Source of the DNA: a virus
Direction: 5' to 3' (one strand)
Length of the DNA: 23,233 bases
Virus record (IMG/VR): IMGVR_UViG_3300033571_017067
Coordinates: 1-23,233 of that record
Made by a program: the position numbers and the translations under genes. The notes under the pieces were generated by a model. The model searched no databases. It saw nothing but the letters and a program-made list of their open reading frames with translations, and was not told the DNA's origin. Within the stretch, counting starts at the first letter, position 1. Each line of letters begins with the position of its first letter. Positions 14,389-23,136 of the stretch are shown one piece after another.

Positions 14389-14603
14389 ACCCCTGGATCC
14401 GGCATCGGAGGGGGCCCTACGGCGGGCACAGCGCAGCGCCTGGCCATCAGGGCGACCCCGGCATCCTTGCAAAGCTGTTGAAGCTGCTCCCAGGCCTCGG
14501 GGCCGGACTTGGCTTCGACGCAATGATCCCCGGCGCAGATGCGCCAGACCAGCTCACCCTTAACGATCACCGCTTCCTGGACCGGGACGAGAGGATCAGG
14601 CAC
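14385..14603 (-). CDS. Small hypothetical protein
   Basis: A GTG-started frame of 72 residues runs leftward from just before the integrase and overlaps the end of the peptidase gene by four bases. It contains EAVIVKGELVWRICAGDHCV and EAWEQLQQLCKDAGVALMAR, which look like a small alpha/beta protein, followed by a Pro-rich tail. No family is recognised. Divergent placement from the integrase is compatible with an excisionase or integration control factor, but nothing in its residues shows that; recombination directionality factors for serine integrases vary widely. Confidence 0.45.
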   Translation of the reverse strand: MPDPLVPVQEAVIVKGELVWRICAGDHCVEAKSGPEAWEQLQQLCKDAGVALMARRCAVPAVGPPPMPDPGV

Positions 14604-14741
14604 CGGTCTACTGCTGTGGTTCTGCAGGTTTCCGGGTTCTCAGGGGCTGAGACTCCCTGCGGCAACAGGCAGCGCTTATCAGACGGTATCGAAGGAAAAC
14701 GTTGCCAAAGCGCTAGGGTCCGAACCACTGCACCGCAGCCT
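14604..14741. promoter_or_regulatory. Integrase upstream region, candidate attP / control site
   Basis: This 138-base gap lies between a leftward small gene and the integrase. It holds two pairs of inverted repeats: GGCAAC (14661-14666) with GTTGCC (14701-14706), and AGCGCTT (14671-14677) with AAGCGCT (14708-14714). The pairs interleave, so they cannot both form as simple nested hairpins. Large serine integrases usually have attP beside their gene as a roughly 50-base imperfect dyad; the 14661-14714 block has suitable size and position. No sequence feature proves attachment use. Confidence 0.4.
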
Positions 14742-16046
14742 ATGCGCCTCGGTTATGCCCGTGTCTCGAAGGAGGAGCAGAGCGACAGCCTGCCTGCCCA
14801 GGTGGCCAGGCTGCAGGGCGCCGGTTGCGATCGGATCGTGGAGGAGCTGGAGAGCGGCCGCAATGATGACCGCCCCGGCCTAGCGGAGGTGGTGGCCGAG
14901 GTGCGGGCCGGGAAGGTGACGGAGCTGCTGATCACCCGCGCTGACCGGCTGGGGCGCAATGCCGCGTTTGCGGATGAGCTGCTGGCGCTGTGTGCCCTGA
15001 TGGGGGTGACCGTGACGGCGCTAGACGGCGGCACCATCGAATCGGCCACGCCACAGGGGTTCCTGCAAGCCAGGTTGCTGACCACCATGGCTGAGGTGGA
15101 GAGCAGGATGCTGAGCCTGCGGTTGCGGCGGCAGTTTGAGCAGTACCGGGCCCAGGGCCGCCACCTGCGGCGCCGGAAACCGTTCGGGTATCGAGGAGGT
15201 GCCAACCACCGGCTGGAGCCCCACCCGGAGCACTGGCCCCAGGCATTAAAGGTGCTGGAACGACTGCGGGAGCTGGGGAGCTTTTCGGCGGTGATGCGGG
15301 AACTGCCGAGCTGGTGCAGCTGGACCCCGGCGACCCCCAATTTGATGGCGTGGTTTTACAACCCCTGCATCCGGGGGCACGTGGGCCACCTGCTGCAGAA
15401 GGGAAGCGGGAAGAGCTGGAATCAGAAATGGGGTGAGATTCACTACGACCAGCACCCGGCGTTGATCGGCGAAGCTGATTGGCAGGAGCTTGCGATGTAC
15501 TTGCGGCGCCCTGCCAATACTTTTCTGGGGCGAGGCCGCGAAGCTCGCCATGGGCTGACCGGGTTGCTGAGCTGCGCGGCGTGCGGTCACAGCCTGCGGC
15601 GCAACAACTCTGGCAACACGGCGTGGTGGCGTTGCCGTCACCGGCTGTGCCAGGAACGGGGCGCCATCCGGGAGTGTGATGCCATGCCTTTGGTGGTGGC
15701 GGCGTGCGTGGCTGCTGCAGATCGCCTGGCGGCGGCGTATGCCATGCCCGCCGACGAGGATCCGGCGGTGGCGGCAAAACGGCGGGATCTGGAGCAACTG
15801 GAGGGACTGGCTAGGCGAAACCCTGCGATTGCCTCAGCGTGCGTTGCATTGCGATCGGAGATTGACAGCCTGATACGACGGCCGAGGGTGGCGCCTGAAC
15901 TGGCTGGATATGCCGAGCGGATCAGCGACCCTGAGTTTTTTTTAGGTGCGACACCGCAGGAGCAGCGGGCGCTGTTTTCGGCGGTGCTTGAGAGCCTGGC
16001 GGTGGGTCCAACGGGGGAAGTCCACGCTCAGCCGCGTAGCTGGTGA
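14742..16046 (+). CDS. Large serine recombinase / integrase (XisF-like)
   Basis: The start at 14742 is chosen because the catalytic domain opens there as MRLGYARVSKEEQSDS, with Ser9 the expected nucleophile; the frame runs further upstream but is not protein-like. The 434-residue protein has the resolvase domain (1 to about 130, including RADRLGRN at 66-73), a recombinase domain (about 140-265) and a zinc-ribbon (Cys278, Cys281, Cys298, Cys303 around CAACGHSLRRN), then a helical C-terminus. This is the architecture of phage serine integrases, and it resembles XisF of cyanobacterial excision elements. It would join attP and attB through a double-strand break with a 5'-phosphoserine link. It suggests a temperate life style. 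Confidence 0.85.
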   Translation: MRLGYARVSKEEQSDSLPAQVARLQGAGCDRIVEELESGRNDDRPGLAEVVAEVRAGKVTELLITRADRLGRNAAFADELLALCALMGVTVTALDGGTIESATPQGFLQARLLTTMAEVESRMLSLRLRRQFEQYRAQGRHLRRRKPFGYRGGANHRLEPHPEHWPQALKVLERLRELGSFSAVMRELPSWCSWTPATPNLMAWFYNPCIRGHVGHLLQKGSGKSWNQKWGEIHYDQHPALIGEADWQELAMYLRRPANTFLGRGREARHGLTGLLSCAACGHSLRRNNSGNTAWWRCRHRLCQERGAIRECDAMPLVVAACVAAADRLAAAYAMPADEDPAVAAKRRDLEQLEGLARRNPAIASACVALRSEIDSLIRRPRVAPELAGYAERISDPEFFLGATPQEQRALFSAVLESLAVGPTGEVHAQPRSW

Positions 16047-16073: not shown

Positions 16074-16481
16074 TCATTGCAGCGGCCATGGCTGCACCCC
16101 AGGAACATCAAAAAAGCCGAGCTGACCCGTGAAGGGAACAAACGGCAGTGGCCTTGGGTCGCGCAGAACAAACCCATAAGGGCCCTGAAACCATAGTGAA
16201 TCAGACTGGTAAACGCAATCAGTAAGATTTACACTGCCAATTATGCCGCCGCGTGGCAAGTTATCTGGCTCAAAGGAATCAAGCAAGTGTCCAATCCTGC
16301 GAAAGCCATTGGCATCGGCAAAATCCATTGCGTCTAAGTATTCTTTTCTTGTCATACCTTTAGCCGCATGGATCAAAAGCGGCCCTCGCACTCTTGTTCC
16401 CCAATTGCGGTTTTCGATGTCTTTGCCGGCCAGCAAGATAAGGCTGGCCCATGGCTGGCGGATAGATAGGGCGAGAGTCAT
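16074..16481 (-). CDS. ASCH-domain protein
   Basis: The 135-residue protein starts TLALSIRQPWASLILLAGKD, followed by IENRNWGTRVRGPLLIHAAK, the hallmark of the ASCH fold (a PUA-like beta barrel expected to bind RNA or modified bases). Later it has PRGGIIGSVNLTDCV, the usual second conserved strand, and LWFQGPYGFVL. Length is typical for a stand-alone ASCH domain. It is the last gene of the leftward operon and overlaps its upstream neighbour by four bases. In phages these are thought to bind RNA or process modified nucleosides; the substrate here is unknown. It converges on the integrase with no clear terminator between. Confidence 0.82.
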   Translation of the reverse strand: MTLALSIRQPWASLILLAGKDIENRNWGTRVRGPLLIHAAKGMTRKEYLDAMDFADANGFRRIGHLLDSFEPDNLPRGGIIGSVNLTDCVYQSDSLWFQGPYGFVLRDPRPLPFVPFTGQLGFFDVPGVQPWPLQ

Positions 16482-17094: not shown

Positions 17095-17688
17095 CGCATC
17101 AAGCCAAACGACCGTTTCCAGCCCGGTTACCCATGGCACGGTGCAGTCGTCCGGGTCGTGCTCGGTGGTGGTGACGCCAAGGGGGCTGGCCCAGATCAGG
17201 AAGGGCCGATCGATAACGGTGCGGAGCTGATCGGAGGCCATCACCAGGGCCCCACCTAGGGCAGCAAGCCAGGGCTCGGGGATGGCTGGGGGCTGGGCCT
17301 CGGTGATCAACAGGGCGATACCCAGGGCGCCATCAGGGAAGCGGAGCAGTACATCGGCGGTGGTGGCTACCCGGAGGCGGTGGTCGGCAAGGTGGATCGG
17401 CGTCGCGATGATCTGCGCCTCGTCCCACAGGCCCCAGGAGGTCAGGTGCGCGGTTGTCCGGCTGATTGGGTCGTTGCCCCCGTTGAAACGCTCCACAGGC
17501 CCTCCTGCTGCCTTCTGGCGGGCCATGCGAGCGAAAGCGCGGCGGATGGTGCCGCTCGGCTGGCTGATGCGCTGCTCGGGGTAGAGGGCGGCCACCACCT
17601 CGGCCACCGTGCGGCGGATCATGGTGCCGCTGGTGTGTTGGTAAATGCCGGGGATCGGGGTCGGGCGGCAGGTGGGGGTGAATATCAC
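17047..17688 (-). CDS. Hypothetical protein, possible degenerate PD-(D/E)XK-type fold
   Basis: The 213-residue protein starts at GTG in a GTGA overlap. The N-terminal 55 residues include a helix-turn-helix-like TVAEVVAALYPEQRISQPSGT, then an Arg/Lys-rich segment. The centre reads HLADHRLRVATTADVLLRFPDGALGIALLITEAQ (about 121-155), which has the spacing of a PD-(D/E)XK nuclease core (Asp, then a beta strand, then E-x-Q), though with Gln in place of the final Lys. The nuclease idea is weak and activity is doubtful. It lies in the replication operon, where recombination nucleases are common. Confidence 0.55.
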   Translation of the reverse strand: MIFTPTCRPTPIPGIYQHTSGTMIRRTVAEVVAALYPEQRISQPSGTIRRAFARMARQKAAGGPVERFNGGNDPISRTTAHLTSWGLWDEAQIIATPIHLADHRLRVATTADVLLRFPDGALGIALLITEAQPPAIPEPWLAALGGALVMASDQLRTVIDRPFLIWASPLGVTTTEHDPDDCTVPWVTGLETVVWLDALRNRSIGFTKAQSVA

Positions 17689-18419
17689 CGCGCCCCCGCA
17701 AAGCTGGCCACCACAGCTACGGCTGGGGGCGCCTTCAGATTGCCTTCGGCGGCAGCCTCTAGGAGCTGATCAGCCCGGTTGGCATTGCGGAGCACCCAGG
17801 CGGCTGCAATGCCCCCGTCATCAGCCTCCAATGGCCAGAACCCCAGCAGCGCATTCTCAAACCACCACCGGCCCTGCGCAAGCTGCTCGGGCGTCCAAGT
17901 TCTGGAATCAATGCCACGCTTGCGCAGTTTGGAAACCGCTGAGGCCACGGCGCGAACATGAGCGCGGCGCTGCTCTGTGCTGAGGTGATCGGGGTGCCAC
18001 TGGGTTGAACCGGCGGGAAGCTGCGGCTGCTGCGGTGGCGCCTGCTCCTTCCGTGCGGGGGCTGGGTCGTGGAAGCGATCAGGGGCGGCCATGCGCTGAG
18101 TTAGATCCTTCCGCAGGCCACGGTCCACCATGGGCTGATCGCTGATCACATCTTCCCCGCGCTCGCGGCGGATGGTGCGATCGACCGGGTAGGCATACCG
18201 GAGTAGGGCCATGTGTGGCGCCATGCCCCTGGGGGGCTCTGGGTCGAGCACCCGCTGCTGAACCGCGTAGAGCAGGATTTCATCGGTGAGATCGATCTTC
18301 GCTCGCTCGGGGAAGGTGTCCCAAGCCATCACCAGGGCCGCTGCTGATAGCGGCTTGGCCATCGGCAGGATCTGCATCAGCGAGGTTATGGCTACCTGGA
18401 ACTGCTGGAGGCTGATCAC
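17685..18419 (-). CDS. Hypothetical replication-operon protein, helicase-loader candidate
   Basis: The 244-residue protein starts at GTG, coupled by GTGA to the initiator gene before it. The N-terminal part (1-80) is helical (QVAITSLMQILPMAKPLSAA, WDTFPERAKIDLTDEILLYA, then a PEPPRGMAPHMALLRYAYPV segment). A Pro/Gln-rich linker follows (about 115-140), then a second helical domain (about 142-225, with TEQRRAHVRAVASAVSKLRK and RWWFENALLGFWPLEADDGG). Two helical domains joined by a linker, immediately after the initiator, mirror the lambda O-P arrangement, so a helicase loader is a reasonable but unproven guess. Confidence 0.6.
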   Translation of the reverse strand: MISLQQFQVAITSLMQILPMAKPLSAAALVMAWDTFPERAKIDLTDEILLYAVQQRVLDPEPPRGMAPHMALLRYAYPVDRTIRRERGEDVISDQPMVDRGLRKDLTQRMAAPDRFHDPAPARKEQAPPQQPQLPAGSTQWHPDHLSTEQRRAHVRAVASAVSKLRKRGIDSRTWTPEQLAQGRWWFENALLGFWPLEADDGGIAAAWVLRNANRADQLLEAAAEGNLKAPPAVAVVASFAGAR

Positions 18420-19474
18420 GCGACGACCTCTGCGAGCAGGGTTTGCTGAGAGGCGGCTGCAGCGGCAGCCTTGCGGGCATCGCGGGCTTGAATGAACGCA
18501 ACGGCAGCGGCAGCGTTTTCCTCAGGGGTTGGGCGACGGTTGCTAGTGGTGGCCTGCTGCATCCCGAACTTGCGCCAGTTGCCGTAGCTGACCGAAAGCC
18601 ACGGCTTGATCGGTGCCCGGTCGATGCCGGTTTGAAGCTGGGTGCGAACCATCTCGGTTCCGCCCTGTGGATCCTGCTGGATCAGGCCGAGCTGTTTGAT
18701 CAGACCATCCCAGGCTTGCTGGGTGCGGGCTCCGGCTTTCACGGCCCAGAAACCCAGGATCTCGGGATGGACGGGCAGTAGCTCGGTTGGGATCAGGTCG
18801 TGTGATGGCTGGAAGCGTGGCTTCCGTGGCTTGGTCAGGGCCATGGTCTGCGGTGGTGGTTCTGGAATCTTAGCTGGTTCTGGGTTTTTGGAAAGCGCAG
18901 CAGCAACGGGCACGGCAACGGGCAAGGCTTCGACCGTGATCAGCTCGCCCTGCCCCTCGCGTGTGTTCCCCCCACTGGGGGGTAAGGGGGGTTCTAAGTC
19001 TTGTTCAATGGTTCTTGTTAGATGGTTCTTGTTAGGGGGGGCTTTTGCCCCAGGGGTGGGGTGGTGCTTTTGCCCCAGGGGTGCCTTGGGGCATCTGCCC
19101 CTTGGGGCTTTTGCCCCAGGGGTGGGGCGTTTGCGGGGGGGGTTGCGAGGCTCAAGCAGGACCGTGAAGTTGGGTGTGCTGCCTGGCCTTTCTTCCCTCA
19201 ACAGCCAGCCGTTTTCGATCAGCCAGTTCCTTGCCTCACGCACGTCTTTTGGGTCCATCCGGCATTGGCTGGCTTGCGTCTCAACCGATGGGTAGGAATT
19301 ACTCCGAACGCCAAGGCTCCCACTACCGTGCTTCCAGAGGTTAAGGTAGACGAAAAGAGTTCCCTTGCGATCCGCAGTGGCGTCCATCAAGAGTTCTGGG
19401 GCCATTGCAAACAATGAGCATGTAAGCGTTGCCGAATATGCCGCCTGGTCGGCAGCGCTTGGGGCTTTGTTCAT
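18416..19474 (-). CDS. Putative replication initiator with winged helix-turn-helix
   Basis: The 352-residue protein starts at ATG (19474). Residues about 35-108 form a winged helix: GTLFVYLNLWKHGS, SYPSVETQASQCRMDPKDVR with a recognition helix, NWLIENGWLLREERPG and a wing ending TPNFTVLLEP, as in HTH_36-type phage replication proteins. A disordered linker (about 109-230) contains PTPGAKAP repeats, then a C-terminal domain (about 235-320: PVHPEILGFWAVKAGARTQQ, IKPWLSVSYGNWRKFG) and an Ala-rich end. Domain order matches lambda O: N-terminal DNA binding, then an origin-bearing linker, then a partner-binding C-terminus. The DNA of the linker holds iteron-like repeats. It heads the leftward early operon. 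Confidence 0.7.
   Translation of the reverse strand: MNKAPSAADQAAYSATLTCSLFAMAPELLMDATADRKGTLFVYLNLWKHGSGSLGVRSNSYPSVETQASQCRMDPKDVREARNWLIENGWLLREERPGSTPNFTVLLEPRNPPRKRPTPGAKAPRGRCPKAPLGQKHHPTPGAKAPPNKNHLTRTIEQDLEPPLPPSGGNTREGQGELITVEALPVAVPVAAALSKNPEPAKIPEPPPQTMALTKPRKPRFQPSHDLIPTELLPVHPEILGFWAVKAGARTQQAWDGLIKQLGLIQQDPQGGTEMVRTQLQTGIDRAPIKPWLSVSYGNWRKFGMQQATTSNRRPTPEENAAAAVAFIQARDARKAAAAAASQQTLLAEVVA
18968..19124. repeat. Candidate replication origin inside the initiator gene
   Basis: Within the linker coding DNA are: a hairpin CCCCCC-ACT-GGGGGG (18968-18982); a perfect tandem repeat ATGGTTCTTGTTAG at 19008-19021 and 19022-19035; and iterons GCTTTTGCCCCAGGGGTG at 19041-19058, 19066-19083 and 19107-19124, with a degenerate copy (GCATCTGCCCCTTGGGG) at 19091-19107. 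Start spacing is 25, 25 and 16. Each iteron has a CCCC-A-GGGG dyad. The 14-mers are AT-richer than all the surrounding DNA, as expected of an unwinding element. The lambda origin has the same plan: four iterons plus an AT-rich block inside gene O. Confidence 0.6.
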
Positions 19475-19702
19475 GTAGAATAATTCCGCATAGTTGGTCT
19501 AAAAGCCTCCCGAGCTGGCCGCAAGGGGGGCTTTTTTGTGCCTGGCACCGGGTCGAGCCCAAGCCAGCACGGGGCCATCCTACCCGAACCTCAGCGGTCT
19601 GCTCCGCTTTGGCAACTGCCACGCACCCACTTGCAGCAGGGTGCAGTAAAGCATTGATCAAAATCACAGTTTGTAAGCCGTAGAAGGGCTTACGGTTGGA
19701 TT
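19475..19702. promoter_or_regulatory. Divergent control region between initiator and regulator
   Basis: This 228-base gap separates the leftward initiator from the rightward regulator and probably holds both early promoters. It contains a rightward -10-like TAGAAT (19476-19481), a strong bidirectional hairpin (19501-19537), and near the regulator an inverted repeat GTAAGCC (19673-19679) / GGCTTAC (19687-19693) ten bases from the ATG at 19703. The last is a good operator candidate for autoregulation. A TAAGCCGTA within it recurs at 20777-20785. No open reading frame of value was seen. Confidence 0.5.
19501..19537 (+). terminator. Strong hairpin terminator in the divergent region
   Basis: The arms AAAAGCCTCCC (19501-19511) and GGGGGGCTTTT (19525-19535) pair over 11 positions with one G-U, around a 13-base loop, and TTTTTT closes the + strand end (19532-19537). 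It is shorter in T-tract on the minus strand. It lies upstream of both divergent genes, so it cannot simply end either one. It may terminate a short rightward transcript or attenuate the regulator's leader. Confidence 0.75.
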
Positions 19703-20551
19703 ATGAAAGCCCTCACCGACCTACGTCAGGCCCTCGACTGGCCACACCTGCCCCCGCCACCAACTCCGACCGTGCCCGACTCGCTTCCCCCAGGCCGCCA
19801 GCTCTCATCCCGTCGTCACCTGATGGGCCGGCAGCACCTTTCGGCCGTGCTGAATTTTTGGTTGGCCCGTACCGGCCTTTCTCATGAGCAGCTCGGCTCA
19901 ATTGCCGACTGGGCCTTGAGCGAGAAGGGTTGGCTGTCCTCGCCGCAGCTGAGCCACCTGCGCAACGGATCAGTCGTCAAGCCCAGCCACCGGAACCTAG
20001 ACGCGCTGGGCGGTGCCAACGAAGCGATCTGGTTATGGCAGATGCGAGGCCCAGAGGTGTGCATGAGGCGCTACGGGCCGCACTCGGCTTACCGAATCGA
20101 CGATCAGTGGCTGAACAACGCAATCTGGCTTCATCATCCTCACCACACAGACGAGGCCCTGAACTACGCCGATTTTTGCGACCTGCAGGCGGGTTACCTG
20201 GTGCTGCCTTACCTCGGCGAAGTGAATCTGTCCCCAAGCGAGGCTAGGGCCCTGAGCCAGGCTCTTGCCGACCTGTTCGACCAGTTGGCTCGGGAGCGCA
20301 TGGCCGATGGGCAACCCATGCGCCAGGCACTCGATGCCGTGCTGGCCGCCTACCCCTCCTCAGCCTCTCCTGATCGCCGCGATCACCTGCGATCAGTGAT
20401 CCTCGGATCCGCCGACTACTCCAAAGCCGAGCTGGAGAAGGAATTGTTCATGCTGGCTGAGACGGTCAGGACGCTTCGAGGACTACCGGAAGGAGGTTAT
20501 GGACCGGCTGAACTGCACGCAGAGTTGTCTGCATCGCGGCGCCGCGCCTGA
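19703..20551 (+). CDS. Putative HTH transcriptional regulator (phage repressor candidate)
   Basis: The 282-residue protein has a Pro-rich N-terminus (1-40), then a helix-turn-helix-like domain: LSAVLNFWLARTGLSHEQLG, ADWALSEKGW and LSSPQLSHLRNGSV (about 46-90), close to the XRE pattern in which the recognition helix ends in S-LRNG. A second domain follows (NYADFCDLQAGYLVLPYLGE, about 153-172; LSPSEARALSQALADLFDQL, about 176-195) and a helical tail. The motif set resembles a family I associate with picocyanobacterial genomes and phages. It is transcribed away from the initiator, where a temperate phage has its repressor or Cro. An inverted repeat sits just before its start. Confidence 0.6.
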   Translation: MKALTDLRQALDWPHLPPPPTPTVPDSLPPGRQLSSRRHLMGRQHLSAVLNFWLARTGLSHEQLGSIADWALSEKGWLSSPQLSHLRNGSVVKPSHRNLDALGGANEAIWLWQMRGPEVCMRRYGPHSAYRIDDQWLNNAIWLHHPHHTDEALNYADFCDLQAGYLVLPYLGEVNLSPSEARALSQALADLFDQLARERMADGQPMRQALDAVLAAYPSSASPDRRDHLRSVILGSADYSKAELEKELFMLAETVRTLRGLPEGGYGPAELHAELSASRRRA

Positions 20552-21127: not shown

Positions 21128-22246
21128 ATGTACTTTCCTCAAGACAACGTAGAACAACCCCTCTACGTTATTACGCCATTGTTCAATCCGCAACGCTATA
21201 AAAGGCGCTGGAAGCTATGGGCTGATTTTCAGAAGCACGTCCGCGATGCGGGCGCCGTGCTGCTCACGGTAGAGTGTTCGTTTGGCGAGCGCACCAGTGC
21301 TGCAGATGACTGGGCGTATCCGAACGACTCTAAAGAGGACCCCACCTACACCAGCTTTGGCCCAGCTCCTGTGCCTCCAGCGGCCAAGATGCCGCCTAAC
21401 AGATTAAAGCAGGACTACATCAAGGTTAGGTGCGACTACGAGCAGGAAATATGGACCAAGGAGTCTCTACTTAATGTCGCCTTGCAACACCTTCCACCTG
21501 ACTGGAAGTACGTTGCCTGGATTGATTCAGATGTGCTTTTTGCTCGACCTGATTGGGTATCAGAAACCCTCCATCAACTCCAGCACTACCACGTCGTGCA
21601 GATGTTCAGTGTTGCGCTGGATCTGTCACCAAAATACGAACCAATCGCAGCCCACCACTCGTTTGTCCACAGCTATCAGCAAGGGCTGGTGCCCCCTGAT
21701 TCCGGTGATTATTACGGTGGCGGCAATGGCGGTAAGTCAGCCGTCAATCGCTGGCACTCCGGCTACGCTTGGGCAGCCAGGCGGGAGGCCCTAGACATTG
21801 TTGGGGGCTTTATGGATTTCCCGATCCTCGGCGCCGCTGATCACCACATGGCTAAGGCTTTGATCGGCCGGGGTCAGGAGAGTGTCCACAAAGACATTCA
21901 CCCAAACTACAAAGCTGCCGTGATGGCTTGGCAGGACAGAGCCGAGCAACACATCAAGCGCAATGTAGGATGTGTGGATGGGACTCTGCTTCATTATTGG
22001 CACGGTTCTAAGGTTAACCGTCGATACGTTGATCGTTGGAAAATCTTGGTAGAAAACAACTTCGATCCTCAGGTTGACATTTACAAAGATACTAGGGGAA
22101 TTTACAAACTAAGCGGCAACAAGCCACGCCTGAGGGATCAGATCCGCGCCTATTTCCGCCAACGCAACGAGGACGGTATTGACATGCAGGATGGTGACGA
22201 CAAGCTCGGGCTGTTGTCAAACCATGATCACCTGGTGCCTTGGTGA
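21128..22246 (+). CDS. GT-A-type glycosyltransferase
   Basis: The 372-residue protein fits a phage-borne family of nucleotide-sugar glycosyltransferases: PLYVITPLFNPQRYKRRWKL (about 11-30), WTKESLLNVALQHLPPDWKY (109-128), WIDSDVLF with the DxD metal site at 133-135, QHYHVVQMFSVALDLSP (152-168), SGYAWAARREALDIVGGFMD, ILGAADHHMAKALIG (233-247) and HYWHGSKVNRRYVDRWKIL (289-307). An insert (about 55-95) is unlike the family core. It lies in the early region with regulatory and SSB genes instead of the tail region. That favours modification of phage DNA or an early host function over decoration of virions, but the acceptor is unknown. Confidence 0.75.
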   Translation: MYFPQDNVEQPLYVITPLFNPQRYKRRWKLWADFQKHVRDAGAVLLTVECSFGERTSAADDWAYPNDSKEDPTYTSFGPAPVPPAAKMPPNRLKQDYIKVRCDYEQEIWTKESLLNVALQHLPPDWKYVAWIDSDVLFARPDWVSETLHQLQHYHVVQMFSVALDLSPKYEPIAAHHSFVHSYQQGLVPPDSGDYYGGGNGGKSAVNRWHSGYAWAARREALDIVGGFMDFPILGAADHHMAKALIGRGQESVHKDIHPNYKAAVMAWQDRAEQHIKRNVGCVDGTLLHYWHGSKVNRRYVDRWKILVENNFDPQVDIYKDTRGIYKLSGNKPRLRDQIRAYFRQRNEDGIDMQDGDDKLGLLSNHDHLVPW

Positions 22247-22266
22247 CGCGGGGCGGACAGGGCGGC

Positions 22267-22347
22267 GGGTTGGCTGTTGCCCTTTCCAAACGGCTTAGGG
22301 ATGGGGTAGAATTGCAAAGCCAGGGGGGCAGCCCCCACAGCCAACCC
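22267..22347 (+). promoter_or_regulatory. Candidate promoter enclosed by a 10-base inverted repeat
   Basis: TTTCCA (22283-22288) and TAGAAT (22307-22312) are 18 bases apart, upstream of the 253-residue gene. A perfect inverted repeat, GGGTTGGCTG (22267-22276) and CAGCCAACCC (22338-22347), encloses them, and a GGGGG-CAG-CCCCC hairpin (22324-22336) sits inside. The ACGGCTTAGGGAT in the spacer (22290-22302) recurs before the capsid gene. This looks like a regulated early or middle promoter. Confidence 0.5.
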
Positions 22348-22374
22348 CTGGTAACACCACCACCGACCCCCACC

Positions 22375-23136
22375 ATGAGCGAGCTTTCGGGACTCCTGGC
22401 CCCGCCAAACCTAGGCAGTGTGATCACTGCTGCCGACATCGACAAGAAAGGCACCGGCTCCTATGCCGCCGATTACGTCAACTGGGCCCGTACCGCTCAA
22501 CTCCTGCGTGAGCACGCACCCGGCTGGCAGTTTCACCTACGCAGCGCCACCTCCGACGGGCAGCATGTGTGGAAGGCCCCCAACGGCACCGGCTACGTGG
22601 TCGGGTATTTCGTAGGTCCAGACGGCTTTACGACTCCAGACTTCCCTCAAGCGGTGATGGACAACCGCAACGCGGCGATCAAGTTTGAGGCGATCGGCGC
22701 ACGGGATCTGACCGACACGCACCGCCGCTGCCTCTGCACCGCTGCCGCCGCGCAGTTCGGCCTAGCCTGGCAACTTTGGGCTAAGGAGCCGGTGGAGAAT
22801 CCGCACCGCGAATCTGATCCTGCGCCTGTCAAAGCGCCCGCCAAGCAACAGCAAGACGCCCGCATTACCCTGGCGACCGCCAACAAGCGCTGTCGCGAGG
22901 CTGGGCTCACCGAAGCCGGAATTGCCGCCATGGCTATTGAACTGAGCAAAGGCGCCTCAGCCGCTATTGGAGGCCTTCCTGCCGATGTTCAGCGCAAGCT
23001 GGCCACTGCTGGCGTGTCCGATGCCTCGGTAGCCAAGTGGAACGCTGCCGGTGCAGCAGCAGCCGCCAAAGATGCCGCCGAGTCCGACGACGACCCCGAT
23101 CTGCCGGCCACCTGGGACGCTCCCGCCGCCGCTTGA
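22375..23136 (+). CDS. Hypothetical early protein upstream of SSB
   Basis: The start at 22375 (MSELSGLLAPPNLGSVITAA) is chosen because it follows the promoter-like region and the upstream extension is low-complexity. The 253-residue protein has an N-terminal domain (about 15-135: NWARTAQLLREHAPGWQFHL, GYVVGYFVGPDGFTTPDFPQ, a short C-rich helix), then a basic hinge and a helical region (about 155-220), with an acidic tail (ESDDDPDLPATWD). The first domain resembles proteins in which W-F-L and GYL/V-V--F strands bind single-stranded DNA partners, but no family is firmly recognised. It is 50 bases before SSB, which suggests a recombination or annealing role. Confidence 0.55.
   Translation: MSELSGLLAPPNLGSVITAADIDKKGTGSYAADYVNWARTAQLLREHAPGWQFHLRSATSDGQHVWKAPNGTGYVVGYFVGPDGFTTPDFPQAVMDNRNAAIKFEAIGARDLTDTHRRCLCTAAAAQFGLAWQLWAKEPVENPHRESDPAPVKAPAKQQQDARITLATANKRCREAGLTEAGIAAMAIELSKGASAAIGGLPADVQRKLATAGVSDASVAKWNAAGAAAAAKDAAESDDDPDLPATWDAPAAA

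Follow-up and report, generated by a model that had tools for sequence, protein, structure and literature searches.

Architecture of the initiator locus

The 23,233-nt stretch of viral DNA analysed here (the window) carries, on its minus strand, a gene for an O-like replication initiator with an array of repeats in its linker codons (Table 1). On the coding strand, the winged-helix domain (wHTH) is followed by iterons, a tract of A-rich 14-nt repeats, a C-tract element and a conserved C-terminal half (C-half). The protein matches phrog_270 (E 4e-10) as well as phrog_391 and phrog_678 ('replication initiation O-like'); its match to Pfam HTH_36 falls under the family cut-off. In the AlphaFold2 model, the N-terminal domain is a winged helix of three helices and a two-stranded wing, and the linker is disordered through the repeats (pLDDT ~32-40, residues ~120-205). 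Both features agree with the preliminary description, which had placed the repeats inside the disordered linker of a winged-helix initiator gene. The best Foldseek matches of the winged-helix domain are weak (E >=0.02) and comprise plasmid RepA N-domains (4pql/5kbj), MarR-like proteins and the DnaD N-domain (2v79); a profile search of PDB sequences with the initiator led to MarR-type winged helices. The winged helix is presumed to be the iteron-binding domain, and the C-half is presumed to contact the helicase or its loader. DNA identity over the C-half is 82-92% to six relatives (L004, L005, L094, L095, L096, L103) and 63-71% to two others (L098, L100). An Rfam scan of the initiator gene gave a single sub-threshold match (E 0.91), outside the repeat region.

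Table 1 Features of the initiator locus, in window coordinates.
Feature	Position	Strand	Basis
Overlapping downstream gene, 244 aa, in helicase-loader position	17685..18419	minus	GTGA overlap with initiator stop
O-like replication initiator gene, 352 aa	18416..19474	minus	PHROG matches
Conserved C-terminal half of initiator	18419..18958	minus	DNA identity to relatives; AlphaFold2 helical domain 230-307
C-tract element, coding strand CCCCCC-TTA-CCCCCC-AGT-GGGGGG	18968..18991	minus	Common to 58 viral stretches; shorter form in P22, HK97
AT-rich tract, candidate DNA-unwinding element	18992..19036	minus	36% GC; AACAAGA at 14-nt spacing
Iteron, exact 18-mer	19041..19058	minus	Sequence
Iteron, exact 18-mer, reading frame differs from other two exact copies	19066..19083	minus	Sequence
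Degenerate iteron, 12/18 positions matching	19091..19108	minus	Sequence, counted by hand
Iteron, exact 18-mer, CACCCCTGGGGCAAAAGC on coding strand	19107..19124	minus	Sequence
N-terminal winged-helix domain, residues ~24-106	19157..19405	minus	AlphaFold2 model, weak Foldseek matches
Divergent gene, conserved neighbour of module	19703..20551	plus	77-86% DNA identity to relatives except L096

The array consists of three exact copies of an 18-mer (GCTTTTGCCCCAGGGGTG) and one degenerate copy, with start spacings of 25, 25 and 16, as had been described; a search allowing up to two mismatches to the 18-mer returned the three exact copies only. The copies at 19041 and 19107 lie in one reading frame and encode TPGAKAP, while the copy at 19066 lies in another and encodes APLGQKH, which indicates that the DNA is kept and not the peptide. 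The earlier view that the repeats are tuned as DNA and encode PTPGAKAP is strengthened in its first part and needs correction in its second, since only two of the three exact copies give TPGAKAP. Repeated 14-mers cover 94 bases of the gene, against a mean of 2.1 and a maximum of 45 in 500 synonymous shuffles that preserved the protein and its codon usage. Searching IMG/VR with the window iteron (TTGCCCCAGGGGTG) gave 87 stretches with one match each; the same array was not seen elsewhere.

Directly 3' of the iterons in gene orientation, the AT-rich tract is the lowest-GC 45-nt window of a gene with 61% GC. It contains the perfect tandem 14-mer of the preliminary description, ATGGTTCTTGTTAG, in two identical copies at 19008-19021 and 19022-19035, and related 14-nt repeats also occur in relatives of the gene. 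We presume this tract to be the DNA-unwinding element. The 6-bp GC hairpin reported earlier, CCCCCC-ACT-GGGGGG, is present at 18968-18982; its extent had been understated, as it belongs to a longer element, CCCCCC-ACT-GGGGGG-TAA-GGGGGG, in which another G6 run follows.

The overlapping 244-aa gene, which shows no recognisable tie to helicase loaders, has zero Pfam matches above cut-off and zero PHROG matches, and the structure model of its product is poor (pLDDT 66). Its orthologues lie downstream of the initiator in 10 relatives. The protein is 93% identical to that of L094 and ~60% identical to those of L004 and L005, whose initiator C-halves are closest to that of the window; this marks another mosaic junction. 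Elsewhere in the window, a large serine recombinase/integrase (14478-16046, phrog_95) implies that the phage is probably temperate. A small protein at 16074-16481 has a borderline ASCH domain and a strong match to phrog_3193, and a Sak-like single-strand annealing protein (Pfam SSAP_Sak, phrog_21418) is encoded at 22240-23136; the latter is a possible agent of mosaic exchange at the initiator.

Iterons vary with the winged-helix domain

A protein search identified L004 and L005 as relatives, and a search with the C-half added nine more viral loci and one locus in a Synechococcaceae metagenome-assembled genome. With the N-terminal half (N-half) as query, zero relatives were found in IMG/VR, and a tblastn search with the whole initiator against 50,697 phage records likewise returned zero. 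L004 and L005 are 88-91% identical to the window initiator over the last 190-200 residues and differ from it in the first 150 residues and the linker repeats.

Each relative with linker sequence has its own array. We distinguish six iteron types, most of them dyad-symmetric and spaced at 20-25 nt, and each type is paired with a distinct N-half: type A, CACCCCTGGGGCAAAAGC, in the window; type B, CCCCCAAAAGGGG, in L094, L097/L098, L100 and L103; type C, TGTCCGGGAGACGGACA, in L005 and L095; type D, GNGCAGGAGNTGCNC, in L004; type E, TGTCCCACAGCGGGAC, in L096 and L099; and type F, TAGTGCGNNNNACGNACT, in L101/L102. N-half identity is 0.83-0.98 within an iteron type and 0.16-0.60 between types, while C-half identity reaches 0.96 between types and falls to 0.47 within a type. 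The iterons therefore vary with the wHTH and not with the C-half. The same is visible in the DNA, where identity to L004, L005 and L094 is 0.84-0.86 in the upstream gene, 0.32-0.55 over the wHTH and linker, and 0.92-0.94 in the element. Such a dip is expected if domain and sites form one specificity unit, as Furth and Yates reportedly described for lambdoid phages in 1978. With the recognition domain and its sites adjacent in one gene, the two can be replaced together, as a single cassette, and the C-half is left in place. The initiators of lambda, P22 and L each have their own in-gene iterons (PMC8022706).

In every array, identical or near-identical copies are spread over two or three frames, and in L005 all three are used by five identical copies set 22 nt apart. 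Between L095 and L005, both type C, the iteron cores are exact and two spacers carry 3-nt insertions. In L100 (type B), the peptide KRGRGPLPQKG has become IWGTPPLPHLG with the C/G arms retained at nearly equal spacing, and the AAAA centre has become ATTT in two iteron copies. The preliminary description had asked whether the iterons persist when the peptide changes, and both the altered peptide of L100 and the use of several frames in the relatives answer in its favour. The observed repeats were reached in 0 of 500 synonymous recodings in ten of eleven genes and in 1 of 500 in L101, and most repeat pairs are out of frame.

GC skew turns near the locus

We computed GC skew for four long relatives and the window. 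After detrending, the cumulative skew turns within 0.2-0.6 kb of the locus in four sequences and within 2.3 kb in L005 (peak vs element: 46627 vs 46813, 10097 vs 10633, 49273 vs 49480, 19178 vs 18991 and 1116 vs 3454), and it tracks position more than gene direction. The cumulative skew at the locus is a maximum (window 19000-19500, L349-L363), and the minimum lies about half a genome away in the four relatives. For lambda, used as a control, the skew minimum (39890) is near the origin at 39.1 kb. A clear minimum elsewhere had been named beforehand as evidence against an origin at this site and, taken literally, the skew counts against it. The maximum may mark a terminus, or these phages may have a different mutational or replication regime.

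The C-tract element is shared by unrelated initiator genes

The element follows the general pattern C5-7/TTA (or WWA)/C5-7/N1-4/G5-9, with the C strand coding and directly after an AT-rich tract; the window copy belongs to this class, lying in an initiator gene behind repeats and then an AT-rich tract. A search of IMG/VR with the pattern AACCCCCCTTNCCCCCCNNNGGGGG gave 58 stretches, 37 of them distinct, and the reversed pattern gave 0. All 37 distinct sites are inside open frames, split 23/8/6 between the three frames (EPPLPPxGG, NPPYPPxG, TPLTPQGG). Two wider scans of IMG/VR each found at least 106 distinct sites. Among the 106 matches listed with a free three-base spacer, 83 had WWA (TTA 36, ATA 22, TAA 15, AAA 10); with TTA fixed, 103 of the 106 sites listed were in open reading frames of at least 400 nt. 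The 103 proteins among the wide-scan matches listed form 56 clusters at 40% identity. We scanned 40 genes with the element singly against PHROGs, 20 of them picked at random from the wide-scan matches listed, and each of the 40 has a match to a replication-initiation, primosomal or DnaD-like loader family. Some of these profiles extend across the linker, so that the peptide encoded by the element may add to the score, but most matches cover the N- or C-domain.

The surroundings of the element recur with it. Over 154 distinct sites among the matches listed, dense repeats occupy the 130 nt ending at the element in 79% of genes, compared with ~3-8% in windows ending 160-400 nt upstream, and the 20 nt preceding the element have 29% GC and 74% purine. 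As a marker of initiator genes in very different phages, the element is specific enough to serve for origin prediction.

Among 292 cyanobacterial genomes there is one match, in the L103 initiator gene (control 0). Thirty loci in cyanobacterial genomes match phrog_270, and only the L103 gene and L370 have the element, which is a minority feature in this sample. In L370 it takes a variant form with a longer spacer, CCCCCTATATCCCCCAAGGGG, after AGAAG-rich repeats in the phrog_270 gene, which suggests that the class is wider than the scanned patterns. A further pattern, CCCCCNNACCCCCN{1,3}GGGGG, gave 0 matches in the relatives; its gap is too short for C6..N3 forms and the result was discarded.

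Several named phages carry the element. P22 gene 18 contains CCCCCTTACCCCCTAAAGGGGG, and the annotated rep_origin (32840-32984) ends at the element's last base; HK97 gene O contains CCCCCTTACCCCCTAACGGGGG. It also occurs in Erwinia phiEt88, Enterobacter ENT1, Providencia PSTNGR2lys and Pseudomonas phi1, and in Solano. In O-like genes the encoded peptides are TPLPPKGG (P22), TPLPPNGG (HK97), TPLTPQG (ENT1) and TPLTPLGG (phiEt88), and the frames differ relative to the spacer. In Pseudomonas phage phi1 (L365) and Solano (L403), the gene with the element is unannotated or partly under an opposite-strand hypothetical gene. The element is absent from lambda, HK022, phi80, Sf6 and D3, so it is not required by every in-gene origin. 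A search of the openly accessible literature for the element's letters gave no phage paper, and an earlier notice of the P22 palindrome is possible. The in-gene iteron origin is a known arrangement; a C-tract element shared by unrelated initiators appears to be undescribed.

A proposed in-gene origin and its alternatives

The linker very probably is a theta-type, lambda-type replication origin of the window phage. About four dyad iterons at 20-25 nt spacing lie within coding sequence, with one window spacing of 16, and the lambda-like layout is strongly supported; origin activity is what we infer from these data. In the proposed mechanism, this Synechococcaceae phage would start theta-type replication inside its own initiator gene, as lambda, P22 and HK97 do. 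The winged-helix N-half would bind the four iterons within the codons for its own linker, the adjoining A-rich 14-mer tract would melt, and the replicative helicase would be brought in by the C-half together with the downstream gene product or a host factor. N-half and iterons would be swapped as one cassette over a constant C-half, with the C-tract element as the junction.

Three other explanations of the repeats were considered. Lytic replication might instead start half a genome away, close to the GC-skew minimum, the gene still being an initiator and its repeats a relic or the site of another stage such as prophage or plasmid maintenance. The position of the minimum in the four relatives would fit, but the skew turns at the initiator locus in all five sequences and the synonymous shuffles indicate that in every relative the repeats are under strong selection today, so that we consider this improbable. 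Autoregulation or partition, in which the initiator or a co-inherited repressor would use the repeats to control its own transcription or segregation, is very improbable. Dyad sites are typical of operators, and plasmid centromere-binding and MarR-type regulators have folds similar to the winged helix; however, the sites lie ~115-145 codons inside the gene, no promoter-like site was found at the repeats, and an AT-rich tract always comes after them, with the element next in every case except L101; this is the order of the lambda and P22 origins. That the repeats are slippage products without DNA function is hardly credible: a disordered, proline-rich, low-complexity linker with tandem periods of 22-25 would invite slippage, yet the copies occupy different frames, 3-nt insertions fall in spacers and leave the cores exact (L005 vs L095), the repeats exceed synonymous shuffles, and iteron type follows the N-half.

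For the element itself, we judge a structural role most likely, at the border of the melted tract; a protein site is a less likely reading. Among the wide-scan matches listed, the two C tracts are of equal length in 93% of protein clusters, whereas permutation gives an expectation of 46% and a maximum of 70% in 5000 permutations. One C tract would be enough for a plain hairpin. Two of equal length flanking a short A/T spacer form a mirror repeat, and with the G tract that follows, the sequence could adopt either of two hairpins or, on either strand, an intramolecular triplex. Given its composition, the window element has no exceptional single-strand folding stability (z -0.69), and the AAGGGGGG form is somewhat more stable (z -1.73). 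The C6-TTA-C6-N3-G6 element would then be a separate DNA-level part of the origin, most likely adopting a non-B structure, either alternative hairpins or a mirror-repeat fold of the C tracts, that may fix or hold open the bubble where the helicase loads.

A different reading, which we regard as rather unlikely, makes the element a recombination boundary for swapping cassettes of N-half and iterons and not a working part of the origin. The mosaic junction of this initiator family does fall at the element, the phage encodes the Sak-like annealing protein, and the lambdoid phage Sf6 has annotated boundary sequences around its replication genes. Against this, the element recurs in initiator families with unrelated flanks, at a fixed place after the AT-rich tract, and its equal C-tract lengths speak for structure rather than homology length.

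Returning to the structural role, we tentatively put forward, as a conjecture with about as much against it as for it, that a third, structure-forming part, in addition to iterons and unwinding tract, might be common to in-gene origins across many unrelated phages, among them those of cyanobacteria, Pseudomonas and enterobacteria. Once the tract next to it melts, this C-tract mirror repeat with its matching G tract would fold, as a triplex or a hairpin switch, and would set the helicase-loading point. If so, its 21-base pattern would locate phage origins without knowledge of the initiator. The question posed is what a conserved C/G structure beside the unwinding tract does at initiation, P22 and HK97 included. 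For a group of freshwater picocyanobacterial phages, the present data also give a likely origin position, and the six natural pairs of winged helix and cognate iteron on one C-terminal chassis are a ready test set for recognition rules.

Comparison with known replication systems

The best, though weak, fold match of the winged-helix N-domain is to the RepA initiators of staphylococcal multiresistance plasmids (4pql, 5kbj, 4pt7). The E-value is only 0.02, there is no sequence match to those chains, and these are plasmid and not phage proteins. Staphylococcal multiresistance RepA plasmids also carry iterons inside rep.

In phage L, in-gene repeats in gene 18 are likewise a proposed origin, put forward by comparison only, and the cassettes differ between related phages (PMC8022706). 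They are six imprecise 11-bp repeats (TGTCCAACGGA; PMC8022706), and host and sequence are unrelated to those of the window.

The lambda origin consists of iterons and an AT-rich tract within gene O (PMC3349717, PMC7466680). As in the window, 18 bp dyad iterons with an A-rich centre, ~20-24 nt apart, precede an AT-rich tract, and the origin lies mid-gene in an initiator with N-terminal DNA binding (PMC3349717, PMC7466680). The iteron sequence is unrelated to that of the window, so that the early suggestion of a layout like lambda ori from a different sequence family holds: the order of parts is the same and the iterons are not. After its AT tract, lambda has the inverted repeat TTCGTCAGAGAATTCTGGCGAA where the window has the C-tract element; its skew polarity is opposite, and the window has no recognisable lambda P.

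The origins in P22 gene 18 and HK97 gene O differ from that proposed here in their iterons, AT-tract sequence and initiator family (phrog_345/277 type for the HK97 relative L346), and the next gene encodes a DnaB-type helicase in place of the 244-aa protein of the window. They share with the window the same order of parts including the C-tract element, which in P22 has the form already given.
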